Of a stretch of 64,000 nucleotides of DNA, positions 30,657-52,772 are shown piece after piece (position 1 is the first letter of the stretch; every line of letters begins with the position of its first letter). The position numbers and the translations under genes are program-made. Source of the DNA: a virus; IMG/VR virus record IMGVR_UViG_3300036715_001865, positions 1 through 64,000 of that record; one strand, given 5' to 3'. The notes below the pieces were generated by a model, which was not told the DNA's origin, did no database searches, and saw only the letters and a program-made list of their open reading frames with translations.

Positions 30657-32213
30657 TTATACAACAGAGCTATTGTTGATAGTATATTTTCGTTTCCCAC
30701 AATCCCATATACGCAATATTCCGTTATTATTACAGTTAACGGTTTCAGATAATGTTGGGTCAAAGTGTTTCAATAACTTTTGTAAGTTTTTGCGTCTATA
30801 GTTAAATTTATGAAACCTATTATAACCATCCGGACTATAATAATAGTCTGGTGGTAAAATACTATCTAATACAAATCCAGTTTTTTCATATAACTGTCCA
30901 TTACTCCACCGGTTATCAGCAAAACTAATAATTTGTGTCCAATTGTGTGATTGTTTAAAGTGTGTTAATATTTTTGAAAACCCTCCCACCACAGTACAAG
31001 ATGTAGCATACCTATTCAAACAAAAAATATTATTTGGTTGTTTAATAAAGGCCATAGCAGCTACTAATGTGCCACCACACTCCAACCCATATGTTATGCT
31101 TCCAGGGCCATCCCCTTGGATATGATGCTCCTCAAAAAATTGTTTTTTTTGATGCTTATCTAATTGGACAACAGTTGTTTTCCGGGCAAACAATTTATGG
31201 ATATGTGCGAAACCCAGTAAATGCATCAATTTGTTGACAACTTGACGTTTTCGCTGTTTCCACTCGTCTTCATAAATAGTTAATAATTGAATACCTTGTT
31301 GTTGACACATATCATGCTTGTGTTTATGATAATGTCTATCTTTTCCTTTTTGTTCACTGTGCCAATATAACCCACAATATTCAATTGCTAAGTTAAACTG
31401 TGGAATATAGATATCCAATTCTAATGGTGATATGATAGTTCTGGTATTAACAACATGCTCAATGTCACAATCTATTAACAGTTGGGACAGTTGCTTGTGC
31501 CCTCCTGACATTCCATAATATTTTGTTTCAATACCATACTTTCTCATATAATTACAAACTGTGGGAACTCCTCCAGTCAACTTCAACTCTTCAGCTATCA
31601 GAGTCAACGATTTCTTATTAGTTAAATGTTGGTCCGTTAGCCAATCAATATTCTGTAATTTTGTTAATGATATTGGATCAATCCATCTATGGGATATATT
31701 TTGAACACCATATTTCAACTGCCAAGTACTAATTCTTTTATTGGTTCGTTGAGTGATATCATTTTGAGTGTACGGATGTAGTAATCTATATTGTTGGGTG
31801 GAGTGTTTTCCTTGGGCGGAAGCTAGGTAATTAGTATGTCCAAATTTATTCAGGTTGGTAATTTTTCTTGCCTGTGTTCCTTTTTTTGTTGCAGCAATCA
31901 ACATCTGAGGGGACTGTTTCCACAACATCCCTGACTGTACCTTAATAGGATCTTTTGATGCACACTGGACACAACAATATTTATTATATTGTTTTTTATC
32001 AGTCTTCCATTTTACCAGAATTGAACAAGATGGGGCAGAACAAATTGGTAAATTATCACCATGTATTATATGCCATAACCTTTGTTGCAATGAACTGTTT
32101 GTTGGTAAAAAATTAGTCTGTTCGATAACCTGTTGCTTAATATGAGCATTGGTTTTTTTTAGATTTAATTCATTCCCATGTTGTTGCCATATTATTGCCT
32201 CTTCCTTTGTCAC
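30657..32213 (-). CDS. Homing endonuclease 1: KRYG-type repeats, Vsr-like nuclease, Mom/GNAT-like C-domain
   Basis: 518 residues, GTG start at 32213. Order: an N-terminal zinc-ribbon-like region (CSAPSCSILVKW, YCCVQCASKD), a repeat of the KxGHTNYLASAQGK type, a helix-turn-helix-like DNA-binding part, a Vsr-like (EDxHD) nuclease at about 250-315 (ELDIYIPQ, AIEYCGLYWHSE, ITIYEDEW), and a C-terminal domain from about 355. The C-domain has HIQGDGPG, GGFSKILTHF, ISFADNRWSNGQLYEKTGF, PDYYYS and RIWDCG. That pattern resembles Mom-type GNAT proteins. It sits between tail genes with its own terminator and a ribosome-site hairpin. Close paralogue of endonuclease 3. Confidence 0.85.
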   Translation of the reverse strand: MTKEEAIIWQQHGNELNLKKTNAHIKQQVIEQTNFLPTNSSLQQRLWHIIHGDNLPICSAPSCSILVKWKTDKKQYNKYCCVQCASKDPIKVQSGMLWKQSPQMLIAATKKGTQARKITNLNKFGHTNYLASAQGKHSTQQYRLLHPYTQNDITQRTNKRISTWQLKYGVQNISHRWIDPISLTKLQNIDWLTDQHLTNKKSLTLIAEELKLTGGVPTVCNYMRKYGIETKYYGMSGGHKQLSQLLIDCDIEHVVNTRTIISPLELDIYIPQFNLAIEYCGLYWHSEQKGKDRHYHKHKHDMCQQQGIQLLTIYEDEWKQRKRQVVNKLMHLLGFAHIHKLFARKTTVVQLDKHQKKQFFEEHHIQGDGPGSITYGLECGGTLVAAMAFIKQPNNIFCLNRYATSCTVVGGFSKILTHFKQSHNWTQIISFADNRWSNGQLYEKTGFVLDSILPPDYYYSPDGYNRFHKFNYRRKNLQKLLKHFDPTLSETVNCNNNGILRIWDCGKRKYTINNSSVV

Positions 32214-32214
32214 A

Positions 32215-32244
32215 AAAATAACTCCTAATTAAAGGAGTTATTTT
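32215..32244 (-). promoter_or_regulatory. Ribosome-site-hiding hairpin before endonuclease 1
   Basis: AAAATAACTCC pairs with GGAGTTATTTT across 8 nt. The GGAG in the 3' arm is the Shine-Dalgarno, 8 nt before the GTG start, so the folded RNA blocks initiation. Confidence 0.75.
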
Positions 32245-32259
32245 AACACAAATACAACA

Positions 32260-32290
32260 TATAATCAACAGATTATATTTTACCTGCCCC
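32260..32290. repeat. Duplicated gp19 3'-end flank, copy 2
   Basis: The stretch containing ATAATCAACAGATTATATTT then TACCTG matches 33610-33642 at the gp19 stop codon (ATAATCAACTGATTAAATTT then TACCTG), with few mismatches. The two copies bracket endonuclease 2 and the tail-gene fragment. Confidence 0.8.
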
Positions 32291-32424
32291 CAAGCTCTAT
32301 TTGCCACATCTGGATTAAAATCCTGTAATGTTTGTATCACTGTGGGTGATATACCTAAATGGTCTAATATCCAATTTGCTCCTTGGTCCACGCTATCTCC
32401 AATAGATGAAGGTAATGCCCCACA
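32283..32424 (-). pseudogene. Fragment of a diverged tube-initiator-like gene
   Basis: About 141 bp match 30183-30323 of the intact tail gene. By eye there are about 18 mismatches, yet the encoded stretch (ALPSSIGDSVDQGANWIL onward to ANRAWGQ) differs at one residue only. The fragment has no start or continuation and is read partly out of frame by the end of endonuclease 2. It is a captured piece of a homologous gene from a related phage, not a recent copy of the local gene. Confidence 0.88.
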
Positions 32425-33527
32425 AAATCTGATTCCCACATAACAACCAGATTATAACCTAGTGATTTTATTAGGTTTTCTCTTTCGATAGTTTTTTGGT
32501 ATAGCTCGCCCATTGATTTTCCATTCACTTCATTAATTTCATTTGGTGGATAAATTATTGGATTTCCGTGCCAATAATCACCATGAAACTCATAGATTGT
32601 ATTTGTTTCTTCACAGTACCCATCAGCTCTATATCTAGTAGATGGTATTTTCCACTCAGATATTATCTCATAATCTTGTTGAGTTAGCCAGAGTTGGCAC
32701 TTATATGAACTCCAAAAATATTGTCTAATTTCAATTTCGTAATGTCGTAAGTGTGAAAGTATAGTTCCATATGTAATAACATCTAATTCACTGGCAATTT
32801 GAGTAGCAGTTTTGTTTTGTGTAATGTATTGATCAAATAACCAATTATAATCCTCTATTAATGGGAGAATATCCACCATATGTTGTTGACTAGCATGTTT
32901 AACACCATATTTCAATATATTATTATTTGCCCTTTTATTTTTAATTTCTTGTGTTTGTGATGCTCTTATTACCCCATATTTTTTCATATGAGTGGAGGTT
33001 ATAGCATCCTGTACTTGCTTTGTTTGTACTGGAAATACTGTACCATACTTTATCATACAAGTATTATTTCTTTTTTGTCTAACAATAGGGCTTTGTGATG
33101 AATGATGTACACCATATTTCTTTAGATTAGTAGCTACTGTGTTTACTTTCCCACTAGCTGATTGGGCAGCATATTCTACACCATACCTCTCTATCATTGT
33201 TTGTTTTTGTTTTTGTTGTATCAGATCAGAAGACATAGGATTTTTTGTCCCATATCTAATTAAATTGGTAGCAGCTGCTTTGTCTTTTAATTGTGCTGAT
33301 TGCATTGGATTTTCAACACCATACCTCTTTACCATTGTTTGTTTTTGTTTTGCTTGTTGAGATAACTTATCTTGCTTTGCACAACTAGCACTACAATATG
33401 TATTAAATTGTCCCCCAGTAGCCACATTTCTCCATTTTACCTCAGTAGGACACATTTTACACAACACAGGATATGTCTTATGGTGTTTATCTAACCAACC
33501 TTGTTGAATATCAGATATCTTTTTCAT
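32364..33527 (-). CDS. Homing endonuclease 2: KRYG repeats and Vsr-like nuclease, no Mom/GNAT domain
   Basis: 387 residues from ATG 33527 (TTG 33539 possible). A zinc-ribbon (CKMCPTEVKW, YCSASCAKQD) is followed by five KRYGVxxxxQS-type repeats (about 65-205). A helix-turn-helix-like stretch and a Vsr-like nuclease (about 285-370: YRADGY, YEFHGDYWHGNP, LGYNLVVMWESDF) follow. The last 18 or so residues are out-of-frame reading of the tail-gene fragment, so the natural C-terminus is near VMWESDF. The ribosome-site hairpin upstream points to an ATG at 33564 in another frame that stops after 17 codons, suggesting an N-terminal frameshift. Confidence 0.8.
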   Translation of the reverse strand: MKKISDIQQGWLDKHHKTYPVLCKMCPTEVKWRNVATGGQFNTYCSASCAKQDKLSQQAKQKQTMVKRYGVENPMQSAQLKDKAAATNLIRYGTKNPMSSDLIQQKQKQTMIERYGVEYAAQSASGKVNTVATNLKKYGVHHSSQSPIVRQKRNNTCMIKYGTVFPVQTKQVQDAITSTHMKKYGVIRASQTQEIKNKRANNNILKYGVKHASQQHMVDILPLIEDYNWLFDQYITQNKTATQIASELDVITYGTILSHLRHYEIEIRQYFWSSYKCQLWLTQQDYEIISEWKIPSTRYRADGYCEETNTIYEFHGDYWHGNPIIYPPNEINEVNGKSMGELYQKTIERENLIKSLGYNLVVMWESDFVGHYLHLLEIAWTKEQIGY

Positions 33528-33564
33528 AGTCCCAACCAACTGCTAATTTGTGTACCCTAGACAT

Positions 33565-33592
33565 AATAAACTCCTATTGAAAGGAGTTTATT
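33565..33592 (-). promoter_or_regulatory. Ribosome-site-hiding hairpin before endonuclease 2
   Basis: AATAAACTCC pairs perfectly with GGAGTTTATT across 8 nt. GGAG lies 6 nt before ATG 33564. Same design as at endonucleases 1, 3 and 4; it could also act as a terminator for gp19. Confidence 0.7.
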
Positions 33593-33609
33593 ATAAACCA
33601 CATAAGTAA

Positions 33610-33642
33610 AATAATCAACTGATTAAATTTTACCTGCACCCC
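33610..33642. repeat. gp19 3'-end flank, copy 1
   Basis: End of gene 19 (codons for Gly-Ala-Gly-Lys-Ile and stop) plus downstream bases, repeated at 32260-32290. It marks the insertion boundary of the endonuclease 2 cassette. Confidence 0.8.
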
Positions 33643-34210
33643 CTGTAGCAATCCCCGGACCCTGTGAATATCCTCCAAGTACTTGTCTTGCATGGTCAAA
33701 ACTGATTACAACAGCTAGTTCAACTGGATCACCTGTTTCATATGCCAACTCTGCATAATCAATACTTTCAATCCAACAACCTTCAATTGTCCATTTTTCA
33801 ATCACTTGATCATTACCATCTAACATATCTAAGTAACTAACAAACTTATATAATGAACCTTCCCCAGCAGCCGCGAGCCATTGACCTTCAGCCCCAATTA
33901 ACCACTGTTGTTTTTGTTCCTGTGCTTGTAATACTCGAGATGCAGTTCCAGTAACATCATCTTGAATCGTAAGGTTCATTGGTTCCCACGAATGTTTACC
34001 AGCAATATATGAAATTGAGTTATAACGATGCAATGTTATTTTCTCATGTTTTAATTGTGGTCTACTAACCTTTGTTGTTTGCATAGATATTGGCTGACTA
34101 TCTGTTCCACCACCCATGTTCGCAAAGGTGATTCTCCATCTATTTTTGTGTTTTGGGTGTAGGATACCTGTTCCAACACCTGGAATCCCTATATCATTAA
34201 TTGTTGACAT
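33623..34210 (-). CDS. 19: gp19 tail tube protein
   Basis: 195 residues (T4 gp19: 163). Tail-tube pattern: HKNRWRITFANMG near the N-terminus, VSRPQLKHEKITLHRYNSISY, EPMNLTIQDDV, and IEGCWIESIDYAELAYETGDPVELAV. It polymerises as the inner tube inside the gp18 sheath. Ribosome site AGGAG and an exact late promoter 28 nt upstream are present. Endonuclease genes lie on both sides, between it and gp18 and between it and the tube initiator. Confidence 0.95.
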   Translation of the reverse strand: MSTINDIGIPGVGTGILHPKHKNRWRITFANMGGGTDSQPISMQTTKVSRPQLKHEKITLHRYNSISYIAGKHSWEPMNLTIQDDVTGTASRVLQAQEQKQQWLIGAEGQWLAAAGEGSLYKFVSYLDMLDGNDQVIEKWTIEGCWIESIDYAELAYETGDPVELAVVISFDHARQVLGGYSQGPGIATGGAGKI

Positions 34211-34237
34211 GAATTATATCTCCTAATTTGTTTATTA

Positions 34238-34245
34238 TATTTATA
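34238..34245 (-). promoter_or_regulatory. Late promoter core TATAAATA
   Basis: Exact core, 28 nt before gene 19. Confidence 0.75.
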
Positions 34246-34271
34246 CAAACGAGGGTATTATAATACAAAAA

Positions 34272-35738
34272 TCACATTAACACATATTTAATCTTGCCAC
34301 AGTCCCATATCCGCAAAACTCCATTTAAGTCACAATTAACTTTTTCACTCAACTGCTCGTCATATTTTTTTAATAATTTTGATAGGTACTTTCGACGATA
34401 GTTAAATTTGTGTACCCGATTGTGTCCATCTGGGGAATAATAATAATCAGGAGGTAGAGTACTTACAGAAATAAACCCAGTGGCTTGGTATAACTCTCCT
34501 GAACTCCACCTCAAATCCGCAAATGTTACGATCTGGGACGGAGCATAATTGGTTTTGAAATATGATAATAACTTAGTAAACCCACCTACAATCAATGAAG
34601 ATGTGGCATATCTATTTAACACAAATGCTCCACCCTGTTGTTGTATAAACGACATACAAGATACCAACTCATTGTCATATGTTAGTCCTATATTAATGGA
34701 ACTAGGACCGTCCCCTTGTATGTGGTGGGCAGTAAGAAAGGATTGCTTAACATCTGGAGATACTGTTTGGATAATACACTTTCTGCCATATAACCGAGGT
34801 CGATTATCACAGTTTAATAAAATATTTAATTTTTCTTTTATTATAGGTTGTTTTTGTTTCCACTCATCTTCGTATATTGTCAACAATCTAATACCCAACT
34901 GTTCACACATTTTGTGTTTGGTGCTGTGATAATGTTTATGTTTACCTTGTTGTTCACTGTGCCAATACAACCCACAATACTCAATTGCTAAATTATACTC
35001 TGGTATGAATATATCAAGCTCATATGGAGGTATGATAGTACGAACATTGACATCAAACGAAATAGACAATCCACGTAAATAATCACCTATTTGTTTTTCG
35101 CCAGTAGATACGAAAAAATGCTTTGTATCATATCCTAGTTTATGCAAGTTTCGTTGAACTGTATTAACATCAACTTCTAGCTCTGTAGCGATATCACTCA
35201 ATGTTCTTTTATTGACATGGTGTTGTTCTTGTAACCACGTAGGGTCTATTAATTTGGAATAACTGGTAGGTATTATGTGTTTTTGATTTTTGTGTATTCT
35301 ACCATACCGTTGGATATTTGTGCTTTGTTGTTTATTTTTAACTTCAACAGTTTGTTGTGGAATAGTAGTACCATACCGTTGGACATTTGTATTATTGCGC
35401 TTGATGATCCGATTAGGATTATCAATCCCACATTTATACGAACAGGTATCAGAATACCCAACATTTTTTCCTGTTGTATTAAACTTAACTAGACTATGAC
35501 ACACTACACACAGTTTTGGGGAGATTATATGGTTTTTAATACAATGAACCCTCTCCCTAAGAGACGATTTTAAATCATCTGTTATGAAGTCGGTGCGGGT
35601 CATTATATATGAAGTTGCAACAGGGTTTAATTTCAACACCCCAAATGATTTTTTTGATAATTTATAATCACTATCTAGTATACCACAATCTACTAGGTGG
35701 GTCAGAATTTCACTATCAGTTTTAAATTCATCAGACAC
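34272..35738 (-). CDS. Homing endonuclease 3: Vsr-like nuclease with Mom/GNAT-like C-domain
   Basis: 488 residues, GTG start. A helical N-terminus precedes a zinc-ribbon (CVVCHSLVKF, DTCSYKC) and two QRYG repeats (about 125-160). A helix-turn-helix-like part (LSDIATELEVDVNTVQRNLH) precedes the Vsr-like nuclease at about 230-295 (ELDIFIPEYNLAIEYCGLYW, LTIYEDEW). The Mom/GNAT-like domain runs from about 335 (HHIQGDGPSS, GGFTKLLSYF, VTFADLRWSSGELYQATGF, PDYYYSPDG, RIWDCG). It is a close paralogue of endonuclease 1. Its leader and first codons are identical to those of endonuclease 4. It lies between gp18 and gp19. Confidence 0.87.
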   Translation of the reverse strand: MSDEFKTDSEILTHLVDCGILDSDYKLSKKSFGVLKLNPVATSYIMTRTDFITDDLKSSLRERVHCIKNHIISPKLCVVCHSLVKFNTTGKNVGYSDTCSYKCGIDNPNRIIKRNNTNVQRYGTTIPQQTVEVKNKQQSTNIQRYGRIHKNQKHIIPTSYSKLIDPTWLQEQHHVNKRTLSDIATELEVDVNTVQRNLHKLGYDTKHFFVSTGEKQIGDYLRGLSISFDVNVRTIIPPYELDIFIPEYNLAIEYCGLYWHSEQQGKHKHYHSTKHKMCEQLGIRLLTIYEDEWKQKQPIIKEKLNILLNCDNRPRLYGRKCIIQTVSPDVKQSFLTAHHIQGDGPSSINIGLTYDNELVSCMSFIQQQGGAFVLNRYATSSLIVGGFTKLLSYFKTNYAPSQIVTFADLRWSSGELYQATGFISVSTLPPDYYYSPDGHNRVHKFNYRRKYLSKLLKKYDEQLSEKVNCDLNGVLRIWDCGKIKYVLM

Positions 35739-35799
35739 AAAAAACTCCTATTTTTATTAATATTATATAGGAGTTTTTTGTTTTTTACAACATTACTTA
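35725..35799. repeat. 75-bp direct repeat, copy 1 (leader of endonuclease 3)
   Basis: Matches 37318-37392 with about one internal mismatch. It spans the first codons of endonuclease 3, the hairpin and the 3' end of endonuclease 4. Confidence 0.92.
35739..35779 (-). promoter_or_regulatory. Ribosome-site-hiding hairpin before endonuclease 3
   Basis: AAAAAACTCCTAT pairs with ATAGGAGTTTTTT over 13 bp with a 15-nt loop. AGGAG in the 3' arm is 6 nt before GTG. The loop/arm contains TATTAATA, one base off the late promoter core and placed so that a transcript from it would leave the ribosome site free. Confidence 0.78.
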
Positions 35800-37331
35800 G
35801 TCAATACCCATCTCTGTAGACCACAATTATATATTTGGTGTATGTTGTTATTGTGGGTATTGGTTACTTCACTTAGGTTGGGGTCATAAGTTTTTAATAG
35901 ATTAGGTAAGTTCTTGTGTCTATAATTAAATTTATGAACCCGACACTCGCCTATAACATATTGGTAATCAGGAGGAGTAATTTTATCTAACACAAACCCA
36001 TTTGTACCATATATTGTTCCAACACTCCATCTCAGATCAGCAAAACTTATAATAGTAGCCCACTCATTATTATTTTTAAAATGCGACAATAATTTACTAA
36101 ACCCACCTCGCACCTGTCCAATGGTAGCATACCTATTCAATACAAAGTTGCCTTCACCTTTATTAATAAAGGTCATCATCGCTACAAAATTGCCACCATA
36201 GGTAAGTCCATATGTTGTGGACCCTGGACCATCTCCTTGTATATGATAGGAATCAAAAAATTCTGATTTTGTTTTCTTGTTTGGTACTGTGATTACACAC
36301 GACCGCCCATTAATTTTTACACCTTCACTATATCCAAGTATAGTTCTGATGGTATTTTTAACCAGGTGTGAATTATTCAACCACTCATCCGAGAATATAG
36401 TGATTAATCTAATTCCAATATCTGCACACCTATTATATTTCATTTGGTGATAATTGGATGTTTTGTATTCAGAGGAGTGCCAATATAATCCACAATATTC
36501 TATGGCTATGTTTTTATCAGGGATGTAAATATCTAGTTCATATGGTTTAATTAATGACCTATTTTTAACTTCAAAAATTACACCAATTTCTGTTAGAAAC
36601 CGTTCAATATCAACTTGTTGCTGTGAAGATGATTGGTGCCAATACTGTACTTCTATTCCATGTTTTATTAATCTACTAGAGACTACTTTATGGGAGTTTT
36701 TCCAATGTAATCCCAATTCAACACACATAGATGCAACTGTCCGTTGATTAGTTATGTGTTGTTCATACAACCAATCAACGCTATTGAGTTTATTAATGGC
36801 TTCCTCAGATAAAACAGATAATAGCTTGACTGTGCTGGACGGTATCCACCCATTATCAATCTTTCGTCCTATGGTTATTTTTCTAATTTGTTTACTATGT
36901 TCACTATATTGTCTATGTTGAGACAGTGCAGTTAATTGAATTTTTTGACGAGTATCAGTTGATGTTGTGTTGCCGTTGTTCCAATGGGTAATTTGTCCAG
37001 TTGAGAATCGTTCTTTTCTGGTATTGGACAATTGAATGTTTTGTTCAACTGTTCTTGGGATGCCTTTGTTCCAAGCTTGGGTAGGATTATCTAATTTTGT
37101 TTGTTTTATCTTTTCAACCACCTCTAATGATCTTGGTACTCCTTTTCTACTTGAATTTGATCTAATGGCTGCTTCTCGTTTTCTATTGGTTGCATTTGTG
37201 GACTTTAAAACAGCAGTGGGATACAACAGTTTATACTCTGGTAACGTGGTGCTATGTTTTGAAAGATGTTTCCATGTAATGGTAGACATTTCTGCACCAC
37301 ATATCAAACATTTAATTAATTCATCAGACAC
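35793..37331 (-). CDS. Homing endonuclease 4: ROS/MucR-like finger, NUMOD3-like motifs, Vsr-like nuclease, Mom/GNAT-like domain
   Basis: 512 residues, GTG start. The N-terminus differs from its relatives: CLICGAEMSTITWKHLSKH, followed by EYKLLYP, is a ROS/MucR-type C2H2 finger. Next are NUMOD3-like motifs (SRKGVPRSLE, WNKGIPRTVE; about 60-130), a helix-turn-helix-like region, the Vsr-like nuclease (about 255-320: ELDIYIPDKNIAIEYCGLYW, ITIFSDEW) and the Mom/GNAT-like domain (from about 360: YHIQGDGPG, GGFSKLLSHF, ISFADLRWSVGTIYGTNGF). The ending has YNCG instead of WDCG. It is inserted directly after gp18. Confidence 0.87.
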   Translation of the reverse strand: MSDELIKCLICGAEMSTITWKHLSKHSTTLPEYKLLYPTAVLKSTNATNRKREAAIRSNSSRKGVPRSLEVVEKIKQTKLDNPTQAWNKGIPRTVEQNIQLSNTRKERFSTGQITHWNNGNTTSTDTRQKIQLTALSQHRQYSEHSKQIRKITIGRKIDNGWIPSSTVKLLSVLSEEAINKLNSVDWLYEQHITNQRTVASMCVELGLHWKNSHKVVSSRLIKHGIEVQYWHQSSSQQQVDIERFLTEIGVIFEVKNRSLIKPYELDIYIPDKNIAIEYCGLYWHSSEYKTSNYHQMKYNRCADIGIRLITIFSDEWLNNSHLVKNTIRTILGYSEGVKINGRSCVITVPNKKTKSEFFDSYHIQGDGPGSTTYGLTYGGNFVAMMTFINKGEGNFVLNRYATIGQVRGGFSKLLSHFKNNNEWATIISFADLRWSVGTIYGTNGFVLDKITPPDYQYVIGECRVHKFNYRHKNLPNLLKTYDPNLSEVTNTHNNNIHQIYNCGLQRWVLTK

Positions 37332-37392
37332 AAAAAACTCCTATTTTTATTAATATTATATAGGAGTTTTTTGTTTTTTACAACACTACTTA
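37318..37392. repeat. 75-bp direct repeat, copy 2 (leader of endonuclease 4, after gp18)
   Basis: Same 75 bases as 35725-35799 apart from about one mismatch. The copy abuts the gp18 stop codon. Confidence 0.92.
37332..37372 (-). promoter_or_regulatory. Ribosome-site-hiding hairpin before endonuclease 4
   Basis: Identical to the hairpin before endonuclease 3: 13-bp arms, AGGAG in the 3' arm, 6 nt before GTG. Confidence 0.78.
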
Positions 37393-37394
37393 AG

Positions 37395-39128
37395 TTATGC
37401 TGTCAAGGACGCACCGGTTGCAACAATTCGGATTGGAATATATATAAATTCCGCGGCCCTTACAGGTTTCAATGCGACATCGAGATACATTTCATTTCTA
37501 TCAATGCGATCAGGTGTATTATTAGAGGAATCACAGACTGTAGCGAAATCATATAGACCACGTTTAACAATCAAATCACCCAAAAATGAATCAACAGCAG
37601 CTTTTAGGTTATCTCTGGTTAGTTGATCATTTGGTTCAAACACAAACGGCATTGTGTTTTTGCGTAATGAACGTTTGATATATTGAACCAAACGTACCAC
37701 ATTGATACGATCCATTGCTGAAGCATCCGGAGCAGAAGTTTTTTGTCCCCATACAATAATACCTCTTCCTGGGAAGAACACAATAGGATTAATATTGGTA
37801 AAGTATTTGTATAAGTTATCTCTTTGTCCTAAATTCAAAGCAACTGGGTTGAATGTAGTTGGTGTTCCTAGAGTACCAGATACATATCCAACTTCAGATA
37901 TACTTGATACTTGTCCACGTCTAGTTCCAGCTGGTGCAAACCACATTTCTGACACTTCATCACTGTATATGATTGTGCGTAATGCAGTACCAGATGCTGA
38001 AACGAATACATTTGCTCCATCTAAATTTGATGCTAATCCGTGTGGATAATAATATGCCACATTTCGGTTAGATCTTCGTTCAACAGTAGCAGCCCAAGTT
38101 ACAACATCTTCTGGAGTTTTGGTAAATGGAGTATCAGCAATAACAAATGCTTCTTCTTGTATATCAATTACCAAATTGATTAATTCATCCACAACTTCAG
38201 GGAAACCAGGACATACAACAATGTTATATTCGTATGCTTCTGATCTTATATCAGTGTTGCTGTTAATAGATGCTTGTAAGGCTGTAACAACAGCAACTCT
38301 ACGTGCAGCATCATTTGAACCAAGGCTAGTTTCGTTGGCAAATTGATTAGTATACTTAAATTCATCAGCACCACCCAATAAAGCGTTACCAGCTTCTTGT
38401 GGAGTCCATTCAGTAGTTACAATTCCACCTAAGTTATTGTTAACCCAGTCAGTTGCAATTCCAGCTAATCCAAGAAATACACCAGTTGCAGCATTAGTAC
38501 AACCATTAGCATACACTAAATATGGAGAGGACGCATGGTCATCCATGAAACTAATACGACTGTGTGCAAATGAGAACATGCTCCAAATAGGTTGTGTTGC
38601 TGCTGCTGCAAGTGATAAGAATTTGGTACGATTGATAGTGGTTTTGTAAGTTGGGTCTGATGGAACATATCCATTTGATAAATTAAATTCATTCAAATAT
38701 GCATTTGCTAAATTTTCCAGAACATACGAAGCTTCTTGGATTTTAGTATCCCACATCATTTGAATATCAGCAACATTATCGTTCAAGTTTACATTTGCAC
38801 GAATAACATATGCTCTGCTACAAATACCTAAACACTGATTCAATGCAAACAAACCGTATTCATTTCGGGTATCCCCATGTAGTGGTCTACCACTAGTATC
38901 TGTTAAGAATTTAGGAATACCATACAATTCAGTACTTTGTCTTAAACTGGTAAGAGTTCGGATCACATTAGATTCATATGTGCCTGCCGCCCCAGATATA
39001 CCATCTGGTTTAGTTTTTTCATCAGCTGTTGCTATGAAAATTAATGGGACAGTTTTAGCTGATGCTGGAATGAAAAAGGATTCATCTGTCACAGTAACTG
39101 ATACCCCTGGGCTAATTAAATTTGCCAT
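37395..39128 (-). CDS. 18: gp18 contractile tail sheath
   Basis: 577 residues (T4 gp18: 659). Sheath signatures: the N-terminus SPGVSVTVTDESFF (strand that links neighbouring subunits), PGFPEVVDELINLVIDIQEE, the C-terminal sheath domain (GRGIIVWGQKTSAPDASAMD, RINVVRLVQYIKRSLRKNTM, FEPNDQLTRDNLKAAVDSFL) and a terminal strand. It contracts around the gp19 tube at infection. Ribosome site AAGGAGAAAC precedes the ATG; a late-promoter variant lies 88 nt upstream. Confidence 0.96.
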   Translation of the reverse strand: MANLISPGVSVTVTDESFFIPASAKTVPLIFIATADEKTKPDGISGAAGTYESNVIRTLTSLRQSTELYGIPKFLTDTSGRPLHGDTRNEYGLFALNQCLGICSRAYVIRANVNLNDNVADIQMMWDTKIQEASYVLENLANAYLNEFNLSNGYVPSDPTYKTTINRTKFLSLAAAATQPIWSMFSFAHSRISFMDDHASSPYLVYANGCTNAATGVFLGLAGIATDWVNNNLGGIVTTEWTPQEAGNALLGGADEFKYTNQFANETSLGSNDAARRVAVVTALQASINSNTDIRSEAYEYNIVVCPGFPEVVDELINLVIDIQEEAFVIADTPFTKTPEDVVTWAATVERRSNRNVAYYYPHGLASNLDGANVFVSASGTALRTIIYSDEVSEMWFAPAGTRRGQVSSISEVGYVSGTLGTPTTFNPVALNLGQRDNLYKYFTNINPIVFFPGRGIIVWGQKTSAPDASAMDRINVVRLVQYIKRSLRKNTMPFVFEPNDQLTRDNLKAAVDSFLGDLIVKRGLYDFATVCDSSNNTPDRIDRNEMYLDVALKPVRAAEFIYIPIRIVATGASLTA

Positions 39129-39215
39129 GTTGTTTCTCCTTGGGAAAATTATATTAATTATATTTCACACATTTCATCCCGCAGATAATGCAAGAACTTT
39201 ATTGTGTTACATATA

Positions 39216-39223
39216 TATTTATC
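39216..39223 (-). promoter_or_regulatory. Late promoter variant GATAAATA for gp18
   Basis: GATAAATA on the minus strand, 88 nt before gene 18; farther than usual but no closer copy is visible. Confidence 0.4.
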
Positions 39224-39319: not shown

Positions 39320-40927
39320 ATGAATGAGCTTGAAACAGAATTGCACAAATTAAACATATTCACCCACAATGGAACTATTAATAAACAAGCGTCCAGATTA
39401 TTAACCAACAATCCTGAGACATTATATAAATTAATAGAAGCAACAAAATTTCTAGAAAACCACCCCTCTAATCGAGCCAGATTACATGCTTTGAGAACGG
39501 GACTATTATCACAACCCAAGTGTGCAACATGCTCAACAGCCACTACATTTAATAATGCGACTGGACAGTTTAATAAATTTTGTCCAAATACTGGTGGGAA
39601 ATCTTGTACAAACAGTAACACAGACTCCATTCTTAAAAAAAATACCACTATGGTTAAAAAGTATGGAGTTACCAATGCTGCACACAGTGAGGAGTTACAA
39701 ACCAAACGGAACAATACTATGGTGGCTAGGTATGGCTGTACAACACCTATACAAAATGCTGACATTAAACAAAAAATAAAAGATACCATGATGGCTAGAT
39801 ATGGAACGATGCATATTGCTCATATTCCACAATCTGCCACGAAACGAAAGGAAACTAACATCCGCAAATTTGGAGCTGCTACATATGCTCAATCATTGGT
39901 GCCCACTGAAGCTATAGACCTATTATCAAACATAGATTGGTTGTCAGACAATTTAAAAGATTTTACGGTGGCAGAAGTTGCGATAGCAGCAAACACGTCT
40001 GTATTTACGGTTAGAAAATGGATTTATCATCACAATCTACAACACTTGTTGGTATCAACTGGCTCATCTGATCAACGAGAGTTGGCAAGATTCCTAGATA
40101 CACTGGATTTAGAATATACAACCAATGATAAGCAACTAATTGCTCCAAAGGAAGTGGATTTTTATATACCATCCAAGCAATTAGCTGTGGAATATAATGG
40201 AATTTTTTACCACTCACAGTTATCAAAACGAGATAAAAATTACCACATAAACAAAACAACTAGTTGCAACAATAATGGGGTTAGATTAATTCAAATATGG
40301 TCAAATGAATGGAAAAACAAGAAAGACATTGTACAATCCAGAATATTACATGCTGTCGGAATGTCTACTCGAATATATGCTCGGAAGTGTAATATAATTG
40401 TATTACCAACAGCAAACGAACAACAATTTTTTGACGATAACCACATACAGGGAGCAGTACGATCAACTATTTGTTTTGGATTGGAATTGGATGGTAAAGT
40501 GGTAGCATGTATGAGTTTTATAAAATCCAGATTTTCCCCAACTCATGAATGGGAACTATTAAGATATAGTGGCATTAAAAACCATACAATATTAGGTGGC
40601 GCAAGCAAATTGTTTAAACATTTTGTAAAAACACATAATCCAACATCTATAGTGTCCTACTGCGACCTACGTTGGGGAACTGGGACATTATATTCCCAAT
40701 TAGGTTTTACATATTCACACACAAGTGCACCTAATTATTTTTATTTTGTCAGAAATGGGGATACTAATAAGTTATTCACAAGGGTCAATTTCCAAAAGCA
40801 CAAACTAGCTAATAAACTAACCACATTTACCCCAGAACATACAGAATGGGAAAACATGGTTAATAATGGTTATGATAGAATTTGGGATTGTGGGAACAAG
40901 GTATTTACTTGGAATAATGGCGGATAG
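39320..40927 (+). CDS. Homing endonuclease 5 (plus strand): Vsr-like nuclease with Mom/GNAT-like C-domain
   Basis: 535 residues, opposite in orientation to the surrounding tail genes. A helical N-terminus precedes a zinc-binding region (CATCSTATTF, FCPNTGGKSCTN) and KKYG/ARYG/RKFG repeats (about 110-195). A helix-turn-helix-like stretch precedes the Vsr-like nuclease at about 270-335 (EVDFYIPSKQLAVEYNGIFY, IQIWSNEW). The Mom/GNAT-like domain begins at about 370 (NHIQGAVRST, GGASKLFKHF, VSYCDLRWGTGTLYSQLGF, RIWDCG). It lies between gp18 and gp15. Its stop codon lies in the hairpin shared with the gp15 end. Confidence 0.87.
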   Translation: MNELETELHKLNIFTHNGTINKQASRLLTNNPETLYKLIEATKFLENHPSNRARLHALRTGLLSQPKCATCSTATTFNNATGQFNKFCPNTGGKSCTNSNTDSILKKNTTMVKKYGVTNAAHSEELQTKRNNTMVARYGCTTPIQNADIKQKIKDTMMARYGTMHIAHIPQSATKRKETNIRKFGAATYAQSLVPTEAIDLLSNIDWLSDNLKDFTVAEVAIAANTSVFTVRKWIYHHNLQHLLVSTGSSDQRELARFLDTLDLEYTTNDKQLIAPKEVDFYIPSKQLAVEYNGIFYHSQLSKRDKNYHINKTTSCNNNGVRLIQIWSNEWKNKKDIVQSRILHAVGMSTRIYARKCNIIVLPTANEQQFFDDNHIQGAVRSTICFGLELDGKVVACMSFIKSRFSPTHEWELLRYSGIKNHTILGGASKLFKHFVKTHNPTSIVSYCDLRWGTGTLYSQLGFTYSHTSAPNYFYFVRNGDTNKLFTRVNFQKHKLANKLTTFTPEHTEWENMVNNGYDRIWDCGNKVFTWNNGG

Positions 40928-43602: not shown

Positions 43603-43605
43603 AAA

Positions 43606-43661: not shown

Positions 43662-46139
43662 TTATGGATTTACATTAGTATCATCTTGTAAATATTTCCA
43701 AACAGTGCCATTGAAGTACGTATACGCAAGAGTTTTTGGTAAAACTGCTGGAGTGGTTGGAACATGTGGTTTAGTACCAACATACAACACTTTAAAATGT
43801 GTGAATATAGGTGTACCACTTGGAGTTTTTTGTAAATGTGCAGCATCAATCAAATCTACAATACCTGAAACTGGTGCTGTAAATCCACGAGCATGAACAG
43901 CTTTAAATAAAGTACCATCTAATACCACCACCTTTGATGCTAATCCAGTAGTTGCTGATGTGATTTTAATATTACCACCAGTTATAGTTGCAGTAGCAGC
44001 AGCCCCCAAGTCAGTATTAATTTCAGATAACAATGTGGTAAATGTTTGTGCTGCACTTCCTTGAATACTAATTGGTTTAGATACTCCATCCACGATAACA
44101 TTAGCTGTATATAATGTTGGAGCTGTACTAGCTGTATAACTAATTCCAACATACCCTGTTAAACTACTAAACAATGCACCTACATCATGTATTAATACAG
44201 ATGAAGCTAAACCAGTAGTAGCAGATGTGATAACAATATCCCCCCCTGTTAGTGCAGCAGTTGCATATGTTACAGCTGCTTTTCCAGGTACTGCATGAGA
44301 TATTGATACCAACCCTGACACAGCTTTAAATAAAGTTACATCAGCAATAGATACCAACGACAATGCGCCTGTTGTTGCAGACGTGATTCGTAGATGACCA
44401 GCATTGATCGATGCCACAGCTGCTGCTCCCAAATCAGTATTAATTTCTGCTAACAAAGTTGTAACAGTTTGTGCTGCACTTCCCAACACTGAAATAGATT
44501 TGGCAACTCCGTCAACTGTAATAGTTGCAGTATATGTTGTAGTTCCAACTAAGCCTGTTGCAGCAGATCCAGACAAAAAGTTAATGTACTGTACATCTTG
44601 ATACCCAGCTGTTGCTGTAGAATTTAAATCAGTGTTGATTTCATCAATAACATGTTGGATAGTATCCCCCATAGCTCCAGTGAAGTTAATAGTTCTAATA
44701 TTACCATCAACATACACCGTTGAAGAATATGTACGCGATGAACTACCACCTGGATTTGTTGGTAACAAAAATGCGAAACTTGGTAAAGCAGCAAATAATG
44801 TACCATCAGTTATTACAACTGTTGAGTGTACTCCATATGTTGCAGATGTGATTCTAATATCTCCACCTGAAATAGAAGCAACCGCTGCTGCGCCTAAATC
44901 TGTATTAATTTCATTGATAACATCACCAAATGTTGCAATGGCTGCTGGCAAGATAGAAATTGATTTGGACACCCCATCAACTACTACTGTGGCTGTTAGT
45001 GCTGCCAACGAACCAGTACCAGCTACAGCAGTTGCAATAGTACTAAAACTTGTTAAAGCAGGGAATAATGTTCCAGCTGTAATTGCCACAGAAGAAGTGG
45101 TGCTTGTTGTTGCTGAAGTGATTTTGATGTTACCACCCGAAATAGAAGCAACCGCTGCTGCACCTAAATCTGTATTAATTTCAGCTAACAATGTGGTAAA
45201 TGTTAAGGCTGCTGAACCCAATATAGAAATTGCTTTTGACACACCATCAACTACTACTGTGGCAGTATAGGTAGGATATACAATATCTGTTCCACCCGCT
45301 GATACATTTCCGTTTGTGGAAGTCCATGCAGTATTAATTGCACCAATTAAGTCGGTTCCACTTCCAGCTGGGACAGTAACTACTACAGATGATGTTGCCC
45401 CAGTAGTGGACGAAGTGATAATCCATGCATTACCGATTGCAGCAACTGTTGCACCAGGAATTTGAGCATCTAACAGAACTGCCATAGAGGTCATGGTATC
45501 AATTCCAGTAGCAGATACGGTATATACCGTAGCAGTACCACCATCAACAGCAACCTTAATAGTATAACTAGCAGCGGCAATACCAAGAACAGTTGTTGGA
45601 GTAATTGCTGGGGTATCAGTAAACGCAATCGTTGCACTACCACTGGTTGCTGGAGTAAATAATCCAGTTGCATCACCACCAGCTTTTGCTACAGAAAAAT
45701 TAGCAAATTGATAACCAGCTGTAGGTACCAATGTTGTAGATGTCCCTGCAACAATTGGATTATTATAATTAACAATCTGGTATCCTTTGGTTCCAGCTGA
45801 TGCTGATAACCCTGATGGGTCTGTTGTTAATTTTGCGGCACCCAAATCAACTGTTGCTTTTCCAGCAGTTGCTGTAGCAACATTGCTGAGTCCTGTCGTT
45901 GACCCACCTGATTTAGATCCACCAAAATCGATAATTTGGCTACCTGCTGTTGGACCAGCTAACGGTAAAGCACCGCCATTATTTGTGATAAATTGTGTTA
46001 GAATACTTTTATCATCTTCTGATAACGTATCCCATAAAATAAGAGATCTGACACCGGCATCGGTTTTAAGAACGGCAGCATTATTCAATGTTCCGTTGAA
46101 ATGTACATTTTCGGATGTAATCCACACTGGGTTTGGCAT
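43662..46139 (-). CDS. Repeat-built virion protein with flagellin-IN-like repeats
   Basis: 825 residues, rich in A, T, G and S. After an N-terminal module (VWITSENVHFNGTLNNAAVL, LSEDDKSILTQFI) there are at least five repeats of about 85-100 residues. Each has a strand block (TATVVVDGVSKAISILGSA), a helix (LLAEINTDLGAAA) and strands (GGNIKITSAT), plus one or two decayed copies. The pattern resembles the flagellin hook IN motif of FliD/flagellins. The C-terminal region (TPIFTHFKVLYVGTKPHVPT) forms a cap. It probably forms a neck whisker or head decoration fibre. It lies between the gp13 fusion and the DUF5661 gene and has an exact late promoter 40 nt upstream. Confidence 0.8.
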   Translation of the reverse strand: MPNPVWITSENVHFNGTLNNAAVLKTDAGVRSLILWDTLSEDDKSILTQFITNNGGALPLAGPTAGSQIIDFGGSKSGGSTTGLSNVATATAGKATVDLGAAKLTTDPSGLSASAGTKGYQIVNYNNPIVAGTSTTLVPTAGYQFANFSVAKAGGDATGLFTPATSGSATIAFTDTPAITPTTVLGIAAASYTIKVAVDGGTATVYTVSATGIDTMTSMAVLLDAQIPGATVAAIGNAWIITSSTTGATSSVVVTVPAGSGTDLIGAINTAWTSTNGNVSAGGTDIVYPTYTATVVVDGVSKAISILGSAALTFTTLLAEINTDLGAAAVASISGGNIKITSATTSTTSSVAITAGTLFPALTSFSTIATAVAGTGSLAALTATVVVDGVSKSISILPAAIATFGDVINEINTDLGAAAVASISGGDIRITSATYGVHSTVVITDGTLFAALPSFAFLLPTNPGGSSSRTYSSTVYVDGNIRTINFTGAMGDTIQHVIDEINTDLNSTATAGYQDVQYINFLSGSAATGLVGTTTYTATITVDGVAKSISVLGSAAQTVTTLLAEINTDLGAAAVASINAGHLRITSATTGALSLVSIADVTLFKAVSGLVSISHAVPGKAAVTYATAALTGGDIVITSATTGLASSVLIHDVGALFSSLTGYVGISYTASTAPTLYTANVIVDGVSKPISIQGSAAQTFTTLLSEINTDLGAAATATITGGNIKITSATTGLASKVVVLDGTLFKAVHARGFTAPVSGIVDLIDAAHLQKTPSGTPIFTHFKVLYVGTKPHVPTTPAVLPKTLAYTYFNGTVWKYLQDDTNVNP

Positions 46140-46178
46140 TTGTTGCTCCTTTGTAAGGCTTGTTTAATGTATACAATA

Positions 46179-46186
46179 TATTTATA
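46179..46186 (-). promoter_or_regulatory. Late promoter core TATAAATA
   Basis: Exact core, 40 nt before the 825-residue repeat protein. Confidence 0.7.
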
Positions 46187-46262
46187 CGTTATGCTATATT
46201 TTAGAAAGATATACCACCTCAGATTGACCAATAGATCAACAAGAGGTGGATTTATTGGGACA

Positions 46263-49199: not shown

Positions 49200-49227
49200 G
49201 TAAATATATTCCAAGTTAGGTATATAG

Positions 49228-49569
49228 TTATTTATACCCGACCGTATGAACTATTGTAGAATGTGATTCGATGAATTTATTAAATTTTTTCGCGGGGATA
49301 GAAATTGGAAAAAGGGTTGTCTCATCAACCTGAGACAACCCTTTGAATGATACTGATACAGGGGTTGGTGCGTATTTATCGGTACAATCCCACTCAACAA
49401 CTAACATATTTTTTGGTTTTAATTTAAACGTATGTTCACCTTCATTAATTTTTAAGGCACAATAATCGCTTATTTTATATTCAACTGTTGATATTGGGGT
49501 ATTATCAATTGCTGATATCAATTGTTCTCTACTTTCTAGTAAAAATTGTTTAAATGTAAGTTTTGACAT
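49228..49569 (-). CDS. Small protein with capsid-targeting N-terminus
   Basis: 113 residues. It begins MSKLTFKQFLLESREQ, matching the T4 internal-protein targeting peptide (T-F-x-x-F-L-x-E), with a predicted gp21 cut after LLE. The mature part is a small beta-rich domain (TVEYKISDYCALKINEG, KPKNMLVVEWDCTD, PVSVSFKGL) of unknown function. The last codon and the stop overlap the late promoter of the next gene. A promoter variant ACTAAATA lies 26 nt upstream. Ribosome site not obvious. Candidate injected head protein. Confidence 0.65.
   Translation of the reverse strand: MSKLTFKQFLLESREQLISAIDNTPISTVEYKISDYCALKINEGEHTFKLKPKNMLVVEWDCTDKYAPTPVSVSFKGLSQVDETTLFPISIPAKKFNKFIESHSTIVHTVGYK
49229..49236 (-). 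promoter_or_regulatory. Late promoter core TATAAATA
   Basis: Exact core, 30 nt before the gp13 fusion gene. It includes the TAA stop of the preceding gene. Confidence 0.7.
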
Positions 49570-49594
49570 AATTATAGATGTGCTGGTTATATCT

Positions 49595-49602
49595 TATTTA
49601 GT
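49595..49602 (-). promoter_or_regulatory. Late promoter variant ACTAAATA
   Basis: ACTAAATA, 26 nt before the 113-residue gene, within the loop of a 6-bp hairpin GTGCTG/CAGCAC. The same variant occurs before the tape-measure-like gene. Confidence 0.35.
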
Positions 49603-49610
49603 ACAGCACC

Positions 49611-50483
49611 CTATTTTGTGTTCCAGGGGATTGGTATGTTGTTACTTTGTAACAACTGTTCATATTCTAGTTTGGTCCACTTATTAGCTTGTTGAATTAT
49701 TGGCTCAGCTTCTGGCCATCTACCTTGAATAACATCTCTAGCATACCACACAGCAGCCTGTGGGTCGGTAATAATCCTAGCCTCTAACTGTTTATATCTT
49801 GTGAATGGTCTAGTTTTGGCTTTTCTGTATGCTTCCATTGGAGACATTTCTTGATGCCCGACAGTACTAACATGCGAATTTCTAATGGTTGCAATATGAT
49901 TAATTACTGAAGTGGAGAAAAATACAGCCATACTAGGTTCGTTCGGATTGACTATACCTTGCCCATTATCTATTACCCCTTCAATACCTACAGCACGTAA
50001 GTCTTTACGCAACTTAATAGAAATTTCAGAATTACTCATACCTTTATTTTTAAATTTTGGATACTGACCCAACCACACCGATTTAGCATCTTGCTTTGTT
50101 AATCGCTTGCTAATAGCTCCAACACTAGCTAATTTCTGTTTAATTTCTGGTGTTTGGCTACTGTTTGATAGAACCCATATGTTAGATCTGGTTGGAATAC
50201 TAAACACTTGAATGAATGGGGAACCACCTGCCCAAGGAATTTGGTCATGTTGATGAGATCTTATCACAAAATCAATTGGATATGAATAAATTCCTAAGGG
50301 AGTTTGAAATGAACTCCCTGGATTTATTCCTAATTTATTAATTTGGGTGAATGATACAAACAGGTTAGTAGGATCATCTGATTGGTCTCTTATATCAATT
50401 AATTGATCTGTTACTGATGTTCTAGTATTTTGATCTGGATTTTTTCTTGCTTCAATTAAAAATTCAATAAATGTGGGTTTCAT
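49611..50483 (-). CDS. Putative internal head protein / effector with capsid-targeting N-terminus
   Basis: 290 residues. It opens with MKPTFIEFLIEARKN, the closest match here to the T4 capsid-targeting peptide, with an expected cut after LIE. The mature protein has a region FTQINKLGINPGSSFQTPLG followed by IYSYPIDFV (about 45-75), then IWVLSNSS, a charged helix and GIEGVIDNGQGI. A C-terminal repeat-like motif (ARDVIQGRWPEAEPIIQQ) follows. T4 packages Alt, an ADP-ribosyltransferase, in this way. I cannot confirm any catalytic triad here, so an enzymatic role is only a guess. Translation appears gated by a hairpin/late-promoter switch. Confidence 0.68.
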   Translation of the reverse strand: MKPTFIEFLIEARKNPDQNTRTSVTDQLIDIRDQSDDPTNLFVSFTQINKLGINPGSSFQTPLGIYSYPIDFVIRSHQHDQIPWAGGSPFIQVFSIPTRSNIWVLSNSSQTPEIKQKLASVGAISKRLTKQDAKSVWLGQYPKFKNKGMSNSEISIKLRKDLRAVGIEGVIDNGQGIVNPNEPSMAVFFSTSVINHIATIRNSHVSTVGHQEMSPMEAYRKAKTRPFTRYKQLEARIITDPQAAVWYARDVIQGRWPEAEPIIQQANKWTKLEYEQLLQSNNIPIPWNTK

Positions 50484-50488
50484 TTGTG

Positions 50489-50518
50489 TACCTACCTGTT
50501 GTTGTGTAGGTATTTATA
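50489..50518 (-). promoter_or_regulatory. Late promoter adjoining a ribosome-site-hiding hairpin
   Basis: TATAAATA (50518-50511) runs into TACCTAC (50512-50506), which pairs with GTAGGTA (50495-50489) holding the AGG ribosome site 7 nt before ATG 50483. The late start would fall just after the 5' arm, freeing the site. Confidence 0.7.
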
Positions 50519-50536
50519 CGGCCACCAAATGATTTG

Positions 50537-50989
50537 TTACTTACCAAACCAGATATGCGCAGGCTTCACTGCACATATAACACCCCACCTGTGATCGACA
50601 TAACCCCAATCTTCGACAAACACCCGCCAACCTAATTTATTACTACCATCATGGTCGAGATTTCTATCCCAACCAACACATTCTACTGTGGATGATTCAG
50701 GTGACTGTAACCATTTCCACACCTCTTGTATAGTTTCGTCTGCTGTTAAATCTGTTGGATGTCGGACAAACCCATCCCACGTTTCATCAGCATACCACAA
50801 AGCATCATCTGATACTTCGTCAAATATTTCATCAAAATCCATATTACCCATAATACCAGCCCACCAACTCATACCTCTTGGTGGAAGAGGGATAGGTTTC
50901 CCAGCTCTGGCCATATCAGCCCACTCTCCAACAAACCCTCTAATACAAATCATTTGTTGTATCGGTCCTGTTAATTGTTCTAATTTCAT
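50537..50989 (-). CDS. Hypothetical tryptophan-rich late protein
   Basis: 150 residues, AAGGA before ATG. Acidic and unusually rich in tryptophan (13 by eye) with motifs FVGEWADMARAGKPIPLPPR, FDEIFDEVSDDALWYADETW and VGWDRNLDHDGSNKLGWRVF. No signal peptide, membrane segment or cysteine cluster is visible. Late promoter core 32 nt upstream. It lies between the HNH endonuclease and the putative internal proteins. I do not recognise the family. Confidence 0.7.
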   Translation of the reverse strand: MKLEQLTGPIQQMICIRGFVGEWADMARAGKPIPLPPRGMSWWAGIMGNMDFDEIFDEVSDDALWYADETWDGFVRHPTDLTADETIQEVWKWLQSPESSTVECVGWDRNLDHDGSNKLGWRVFVEDWGYVDHRWGVICAVKPAHIWFGK

Positions 50990-51019
50990 AGTATTTCCTT
51001 GTTTCTGTAAGTTATTGAA

Positions 51020-51139
51020 TTATTTATATAACAACCCATACTCCTTAAAAATATCAGGAACAAACTCTTTTAATTTATCTTTGCTCCCAATATTCTCTCT
51101 CCAACCTAACATTTGTAAGTTATCAGGATGAGCACATAC
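51020..51139 (-). pseudogene. C-terminal remnant of another HNH endonuclease
   Basis: In the frame offset from the end of endonuclease 6, the minus strand reads VCAHPDNLQMLGWRENIGSK, followed by DKLKEFVPDIFKEYGLLYK and stop. This is the typical end of an HNH endonuclease (N-L-Q-M-x-x-W-x-E-N-x-x-K) and parallels the internal HNH segment of endonuclease 6 (CADDSNLQMIGWLENVGSRN). No start or catalytic histidines remain. The last codons overlap the late promoter of the next gene. Confidence 0.75.
51021..51028 (-). promoter_or_regulatory. Late promoter core TATAAATA
   Basis: Exact core, 32 nt before the 150-residue hypothetical gene, inside the HNH remnant. Confidence 0.7.
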
Positions 51140-52772
51140 TAAATTTTAATGTTCCACAATCCCACACTCTATAAAAACCATGATTAACCATGTTTTGATA
51201 CTCAGTTAATGTGGCGTCATAATTTGGTAGGGTATTTTTAATAATATCTTTTCTATAGTTCCATCTATGTTTCCGCTGCCCGTTTACCACATAAAAATAT
51301 GCTGGAGGATTAGTTGCTACTAAATTGAACCCCAGTTGGTAATACATATTACCAACGCTCCACCGTATGTCAGCAAAACTATATATTTCTTTCCAACTGT
51401 GATTTCTCTTAAAATGGGTCAATAATTTAGATGCTATCCCCGGAATACGGTAGTCAACATCTGTACAAAATCTACTTAATTCCCATATCCCTTCTTTTGA
51501 TTTTGTTTTATCTTTTTGTCCCAAAGCTACTCTAGGTGAAGTCCATGTCATGACAGATATTAATTTATCGTTATAATATGCTCCGTAACACAACTGAGAA
51601 TTATCATTCCCCTGAACGTGGTTGGCATTCAATAACGATTTTTTTTCTTCAGGTGTACAATATTTAATGACACAATTACGAGCATGTATTTTTTCAGCAC
51701 TTCCTGTAAATGTGTAATGTTTTAATTTTGCGGTCAATAAATCAACATTTTCCATTTCGTCCTCAAACAATACAATAAAAGGTGTAGCAGATTCTTTAAA
51801 TGCTTTATATATAGCCAACCCACTTTTTAAATTCGCATACGATTTGTCCAATGGCAGTACTATAATAGCTCTATTTGAAGCTTCATCATACACTGTCACA
51901 ATAATATCAGCAATTTTTATAAAAGGTTTGCTATTAGGAAATATACCCATCAATGTTTTAGCGTACTGTTCCAATTTTGTATTAGTTGAAATAAACTGAA
52001 AAAACAACGGAGGGATAGTTCCTTTAATATGATTTCGAGAGCCAACATTTTCCAACCATCCAATCATTTGAAGATTAGAATCGTCAGCACACATCTCAGG
52101 TGGGATATTATTATCAAAACAAAACCGTTTAGGTACAATATGGTCTAAATGATACGCTCCATCTACACCTGCTTTCCCTCGTTTTAAATTAAGGGGATTA
52201 ATCTTTTTCTTATGCTTTTTATATACTTGTTCCGTCAAAGCTGTTACAGTAGCCTTATATTGTTGCCATTCTGTAGCAGTTTCTTTCCATTTAGCTGAAT
52301 TTGCCTTTGACCAAGCTGTTAATGGAGCAACTCTTTTCAATGGTCCACACACTCCACATTCTACTTCCATTTCTAATAAATTAGTTGGAGTACAATGAAA
52401 TTCGTGGCCACAATGGATATTTTTAACTAACAATTTAGAGTAAGTGTTTTCGTTTAATAAATGCCTACGACCATCATAATTTGGTGTTAGTATTATTATT
52501 CCTCTTTCTAATAATTTTTTCAAATTTAAATCCCTAGAAATAGAATATTTCTGGTCTCTTTTGTTAGTATTACAGGTAGGACATCCAGATACTCCATATT
52601 TTTTATATGTTTGTCTTTTGGATAAAGGAGTAGCAGTCCATATATGATTACAGGTCATACATTGCATTTTGTGGTGTTTTTTAGTTCCAATAAATGGTTC
52701 TAAAAGTTTAATGTGGTTTTCAGTTTCTAACAATAATGGATAATTATTATTAAATTCTCCTTCTTTTGGCAT
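51123..52772 (-). CDS. Homing endonuclease 6: zinc ribbons, HNH nuclease, Mom/GNAT-like C-domain
   Basis: 549 residues, AGGAG before ATG. Two zinc-ribbon-like regions: CMTCNHIWTATP...GCPTC (about 37-70) and CGHEFHCTPTNLLEMEVECGV (about 120-145). An HNH nuclease is at about 205-250 (YHLDHIVPKRF, DSNLQMIGWLENVGSRNHIK). A C-terminal domain from about 380 (NHVQGNDNSQ, GIASKLLTHF, YSFADIRWSVGNMYYQLGF, RVWDCG) is the same Mom/GNAT-like domain found in endonucleases 1, 3, 4 and 5, which use a Vsr-like nuclease instead. It lies right after gp23 and its terminator. Confidence 0.87.
   Translation of the reverse strand: MPKEGEFNNNYPLLLETENHIKLLEPFIGTKKHHKMQCMTCNHIWTATPLSKRQTYKKYGVSGCPTCNTNKRDQKYSISRDLNLKKLLERGIIILTPNYDGRRHLLNENTYSKLLVKNIHCGHEFHCTPTNLLEMEVECGVCGPLKRVAPLTAWSKANSAKWKETATEWQQYKATVTALTEQVYKKHKKKINPLNLKRGKAGVDGAYHLDHIVPKRFCFDNNIPPEMCADDSNLQMIGWLENVGSRNHIKGTIPPLFFQFISTNTKLEQYAKTLMGIFPNSKPFIKIADIIVTVYDEASNRAIIVLPLDKSYANLKSGLAIYKAFKESATPFIVLFEDEMENVDLLTAKLKHYTFTGSAEKIHARNCVIKYCTPEEKKSLLNANHVQGNDNSQLCYGAYYNDKLISVMTWTSPRVALGQKDKTKSKEGIWELSRFCTDVDYRIPGIASKLLTHFKRNHSWKEIYSFADIRWSVGNMYYQLGFNLVATNPPAYFYVVNGQRKHRWNYRKDIIKNTLPNYDATLTEYQNMVNHGFYRVWDCGTLKFSMCSS

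Follow-up and report, generated by a model that had tools for sequence, protein, structure and literature searches.

A Mom-like C-terminal domain shared by Hef-like endonucleases of a T4-like phage and by a nuclease-dead bacterial gene

The endonuclease genes and their shared C-terminal domain

The window analyzed here, i.e. the whole 64,000-nucleotide stretch covering positions 1 to 64,000 of the 190,391-bp viral record IMGVR_UViG_3300036715_001865, carries between positions 30657 and 52772 a series of endonuclease genes set among T4-like genes for virion components (portal, major head, head-tail adaptor, sheath, tube, head closure, and terminase). Five of the encoded proteins, endonucleases 1, 3, 4, 5, and 6, have in common a C-terminal domain (CTD) of approximately 175 residues. 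The features are given below, with bit scores taken from a profile of these five copies.

30657-32213, minus strand: endonuclease 1 ORF
30669..31199, minus strand: CTD of endonuclease 1 (311 bits; model pLDDT 95.2; top PDB fold match 8BV8, Mom)
31194..31523, minus strand: restriction-endonuclease-fold (REase) domain of endonuclease 1, Vsr/DUF559/MTES_1575-like, with D267, E278, H285, and K299 intact
32364-33539, minus strand: endonuclease 2, DUF7487 repeats (PF24308, E=3.6e-29) and a Vsr-like nuclease
34272-35738, minus strand: endonuclease 3 ORF
34275..34796, minus strand: CTD of endonuclease 3 (294.9 bits; phrog_1384, Mom-like, E=1.5e-4)
35793-37331, minus strand: endonuclease 4 ORF
35796..36326, minus strand: CTD of endonuclease 4 (294.6 bits)
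39320-40927, plus strand: endonuclease 5 ORF, on the strand opposite to the structural genes
40358..40918, plus strand: CTD of endonuclease 5 (282.3 bits; E108 equivalent present, ELLRY)
51123-52772, minus strand: endonuclease 6 ORF
51126..51704, minus strand: CTD of endonuclease 6 (288.3 bits; phrog_1384, Mom-like, E=3.9e-8)
51717..51902, minus strand: degenerate REase segment of endonuclease 6 (about residues 291-352; T at D267, I at E278)
52023..52151, minus strand: HNH motif of endonuclease 6 (HLDHIVP...NLQ...NVGSRNH), conserved in the relatives L101 and L102
76291-76836, minus strand: sixth CTD copy, beyond the window, found with the profile of five

The initial annotation had described in these five proteins a common C-terminal block of about 160 residues with a series of named motifs, and both the ORF translations and the five-copy profile bear out the block and its motifs, its length being nearer to 175 residues than proposed. 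The motifs are H[IV]QG, G[GI]xSKL, [FY][AC]DxRW..G..Y...GF, PxYxY, and [WY][DN]CG, with HVQG and GIASKLL as the variants of copy 6 and YNCG as that of copy 4. The CTDs of the other four window copies are 57, 53, 40, and 36% identical to that of copy 1. In the whole record the profile detects six copies, at 311 down to 178.6 bits, and it finds no match in endonuclease 2, which the annotation had likewise left without the domain. Since the N-terminal regions are only about 20% identical between paralogues, as compared with 33-57% for the CTD, target specificity probably resides in the variable N-terminus and not in the CTD. Elsewhere in the window, at 43662-46139, an 825-aa ORF with numerous 'INTDLGAAAVASISGGNIKITSATT'-type repeats lies between virion genes and is likely a repetitive structural protein.

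Relation of the domain to Mom

The CTD had initially been likened to the Mom family of GNAT-fold proteins, and this likeness has been strengthened by several comparisons. When 78 CTDs were aligned profile to profile (hhalign) with 13 stand-alone Mom proteins, Mu Mom among them, the result was E=7.7e-16; the Mom-like family phrog_1384 matches copies 3 and 6 directly, and the curated cut-off of the Pfam Mom family (PF25680) is passed by the relatives L020 and L101, the window copies themselves giving no match to that family. The Foldseek comparison with Mom and GNAT structures which the annotation had suggested was run with an AlphaFold model of the CTD (mean pLDDT 95.2), and the top PDB match was 8BV8, the S124A mutant of phage Mu Mom (E=2.5e-7); ordinary GNAT acetyltransferases came next. 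The full-length model also has 8BV8 as its top PDB match, and the matches to the CTD in a viral structure library include the Mom of phage FSL SP-031 and orf128 of LP65. It has to be added that a CTD-profile search of solved-structure sequences gave weak GNAT matches only, whereas the fold search gave Mom, and that a search for a stand-alone Mom elsewhere in the genome gave no match, the control being unmatched as well. The assignment of the CTD as a Mom-clade GNAT is supported by the profiles and by the predicted fold.

With regard to the active-site-like residues, H33, R70, and Y111 are found in 78/78 CTDs and D102 in 69/78. The residues invariant in stand-alone Mom, which were used for comparison, are H58, Y59, E108, R111, S/T124, D149, and Y159 (241-residue numbering), and the full set is not retained by the CTD family: H58, R111, and Y159 are present in 78/78 CTDs, D149 in 69/78, and E108 in 52/78, with an equivalent of E108 in copies 5 and 6 and C, V, and V at this position in copies 1, 3, and 4. 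Y59 occurs in 0/78 CTDs, which have I, L, or V there, and S124, whose replacement by alanine makes the “inactive mutant” of the 8BV8 title, has no conserved S/T partner in the CTDs when aligned in three MAFFT modes and by hhalign. Because Y59 and S124 are unconserved, it is doubtful, as judged by residue comparison, that the chemistry of the CTD is identical to that of Mom. No protein with a live REase lacks both active-site acids, and 19 nuclease-dead members have each of E, D, H, and R. A viral-only test of the acids in proteins with dead versus live REase (7/7 vs 61/96) was not significant (p=0.09), and relatedness among the Pedobacter sequences inflates the pooled test (p=0.0007).

Nuclease domains and their exchange

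The REase of endonuclease 1 matches PF18741 weakly (E=7e-4), with D267, E278, H285, and K299 being invariant in 55 full-length relatives. By sequence, these four residues are intact in copies 1, 3, 4, and 5, as is the HNH motif in copy 6. Of 116 distinct ORFs with a CTD, 96 retain both D267 and E278, and all 96 have H285 and K or R at position 299; one of the 20 remaining ORFs (L031) is cut by the contig end.

Copy 6 is built differently, as a degenerate REase segment persists in it between the HNH motif and the CTD. Compared by hhalign with the live REase after trimming of the CTD boundary, this segment gave E=2.3e-6 and a score of 35.8, the highest of 50 shuffles scoring 16.2. The HNH assignment itself is based on the motif, which two relatives conserve, and on a weak HNH_4 match in the L102 relative. 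Other combinations are found in L075, where clear HNH_3 domains go together with a dead REase and the CTD, and in L102_5087, where a Vsr-like motif is combined with a copy-6-type segment and the CTD. The sequences indicate that nucleases are swapped while the CTD stays, and that in copy 6 an HNH nuclease was joined to the front of a unit made up of dead REase and Mom, which reads as nuclease replacement because the catalytically dead REase is still in place. The initial annotation had seen one domain re-used on two unrelated nuclease classes; the CTD does occur with both, but its independent recruitment by an HNH nuclease is rejected in view of the remaining dead REase.

Two further contigs should be mentioned. 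In L111:3003-4895, on a Lokiarchaeota MAG contig which may be viral, a Vsr-like nuclease is fused to a Pfam-grade Mom (68.6 bits vs a cut-off of 27.1), apparently as an independent nuclease-Mom joining, and L112:1843-6527, from a Neomarinimicrobiota MAG contig, has three CTD-bearing ORFs in tandem.

Mobility of the endonuclease genes

A 244-kb relative, G001, with a major head protein 81% identical to that of the window, allows for comparison of the insertion sites. The site of copies 1 and 2, between the tube gene and the next tail gene, is empty in G001, and that of copy 5, between the sheath stabilizer and the sheath, has no endonuclease, while the sheath-tube junction of G001 carries a different one. 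Since copies 1, 2, and 5 are absent from gene junctions that are themselves conserved and their intergenic sites are empty, these three endonucleases behave, as judged by genome comparison, as homing genes. The orthologue of copy 6 is found in G001 in the same place, adjoining the capsid gene, and relatives in Acinetobacter phages and PA5oct also adjoin the capsid gene. In G001, a CTD endonuclease ORF (L109:10185-11714; G001 164185-165717) splits the large terminase into parts of 309 and 359 aa; a search for an Rfam intron at this ORF found none, and no Rfam match to group I introns was obtained around the endonucleases in 124 kb.

A nuclease-dead chromosomal relative

A genome scan identified proteins of 260-285 residues, composed of an REase-derived N-terminus and the CTD, in Pedobacter, Persicobacter, and a Cyclobacteriaceae MAG. 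The N-terminus matches the live REase with E=3.9e-9 (score 49.8 vs a shuffled maximum of 17.5), its catalytic residues being lost. In the Pedobacter foliorum genus group, which consists of soil bacteria, 119/121 genomes have one stop-free copy; at the level of the order the gene is found in 128/201 genomes and at that of the phylum in 5/248, by which a phylum-wide distribution is ruled out. The gene is without a family name in Pfam and NCBIfam. Within the Pedobacter group (L122:2710-3516 and the 30 loci L135 and L138-L166), miaA lies directly downstream in 30/30 loci checked, and none of H, E, R, D, and Y varies among the 30. In six species pairs the CTD has a dN/dS of 0.03-0.11, lower than that of the N-terminus, and the gene is under purifying selection.

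The chromosomal proteins form one group (SH-aLRT 91-93) on a tree which is poorly resolved and requires at least four changes. A direct comparison of the Pedobacter N-terminus with the dead segment of copy 6 gave no match, and the two REase losses look separate because each dead segment matches the live REase, yet not the other. From the degenerate REase of the chromosomal protein we infer that nuclease fusion came first and nuclease loss later. The initial annotation had suggested a selected role for the CTD, and the conservation of a nuclease-dead gene under purifying selection supports such a role, exerted without cutting.

Proposed mechanism and alternative explanations

In the model favored here, if only slightly, the window genes would be free-standing Hef-like homing endonucleases in the virion-protein cluster of a T4-like phage, with a Mom-clade enzymatic CTD working on nucleic acid close to the site bound. 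Site choice would be made by variable N-terminal DNA-binding modules (DUF7487 repeats, helix-turn-helix, and zinc fingers) and cutting by the Vsr/REase-fold domain or, in copy 6, by the HNH nuclease beside the dead REase. The CTD is most likely still an enzyme, to judge from its residues, and would modify a nucleic-acid base using an acyl-CoA-type cofactor; in the nuclease fusions its substrate would presumably be DNA, at the bound site or close to it. The weakest step of the model is the hypothetical marking or shielding of the element's own DNA by the CTD, i.e. self-protection. A role of the CTD in homing is also weakened by endonuclease 2, which, if homing, manages without it. An extension to the chromosome is proposed tentatively, and is held to be somewhat less probable than not: a phage Mom-like domain would have been domesticated in Pedobacter and relatives as a core single-copy, miaA-adjacent gene for an acyl-type nucleic-acid modification, with the same chemistry in the homing versions.

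The enzymatic reading is weakened by the unconserved Y59 and S124 and by the loss of E108 from copies 1, 3, and 4, and these same features suit an explanation, unlikely in our view, in which the CTD is a non-catalytic GNAT fold for DNA binding, dimerization, or nuclease positioning. Its mildly basic charge (net +6 to +9) would be in keeping with that, as would the PxYxY and DCG motifs, nearly invariant in nuclease-bearing members and missing in the chromosomal ones. However, a purely architectural role is hard to reconcile with the invariant H, E, R, D, and Y of the 30 chromosomal genes, which have a dead nuclease and evolve under strong purifying selection, and site choice seems to be placed in the variable N-terminus.

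A still less probable explanation follows the proposal of Iyer et al. (PMC7824862) and treats each protein as a minimal RM element, the CTD momylating phage DNA genome-wide and the nuclease attacking unmodified competitor or host DNA. The fusion of Mom-type domains to nucleases in several copies per phage, and again in the independent L111 fusion, is what such elements would look like, but six divergent copies per genome would be redundant for genome-wide protection, the S124 essential to Mom is absent, and the copies occupy specific intergenic sites that are empty or otherwise occupied in a relative, as homing predicts. Finally, action of the CTD on RNA (e.g. tRNA) or protein is considered decidedly improbable, for although the chromosomal form adjoins miaA and may have a substrate other than DNA, and other phage GNATs modify proteins (Rac, as cited in PMC7824862), gene neighborhood by itself is weak evidence, the nearest fold of known function belongs to a DNA modifier, and fusion to DNA nucleases points to DNA.

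If the CTD of the favored model is catalytic, a base-modifying activity is built into the homing endonucleases of hundreds of phages, and ideas on how such elements coexist with their own cut sites would change. The chromosomal gene, uncharacterized and near-universal in a whole bacterial genus, offers a genetically tractable route to the reaction with no toxic nuclease attached.

Comparison with known systems

Compared with Mu Mom (8BV8; PF25680; phrog_1384), the fold is retained together with H58, R111, D149, and Y159 in most CTDs, which differ in lacking conserved Y59, N121, and S124, in having a GG-x-S-K loop and H-x-Q-G, and in being fused to nucleases. Hef of phage U5 is reported to cleave nrdB (PMC2988022); the likeness to Hef rests here on annotated Hef-like proteins of T4-like phages. 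One of these, from Acinetobacter phage 133, is encoded between gp23 and gp24 and is homologous over most of its length, including the CTD. GenBank labels on relatives include “nuclease/acetyltransferase” and “Hef-like homing endonuclease”.

The Mom-REase fusion itself was already published in 2021: according to Iyer et al. (PMC7824862), Mom domains are fused to REase in jumbo phages, with five in PA5oct, and were proposed to form RM-type conflict systems. The PA5oct proteins, likewise composed of a Mom-clade GNAT and an REase-fold nuclease, are direct relatives of endonuclease 1. Homing behavior, HNH replacement with a dead REase, and the chromosomal nuclease-dead gene do not figure in the passages of that paper considered here, and no account of the latter two was found in the open-license literature. 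What is added here is a replaceable nuclease, the form with an HNH nuclease and a dead REase, the empty sites, and the chromosomal nuclease-dead gene.
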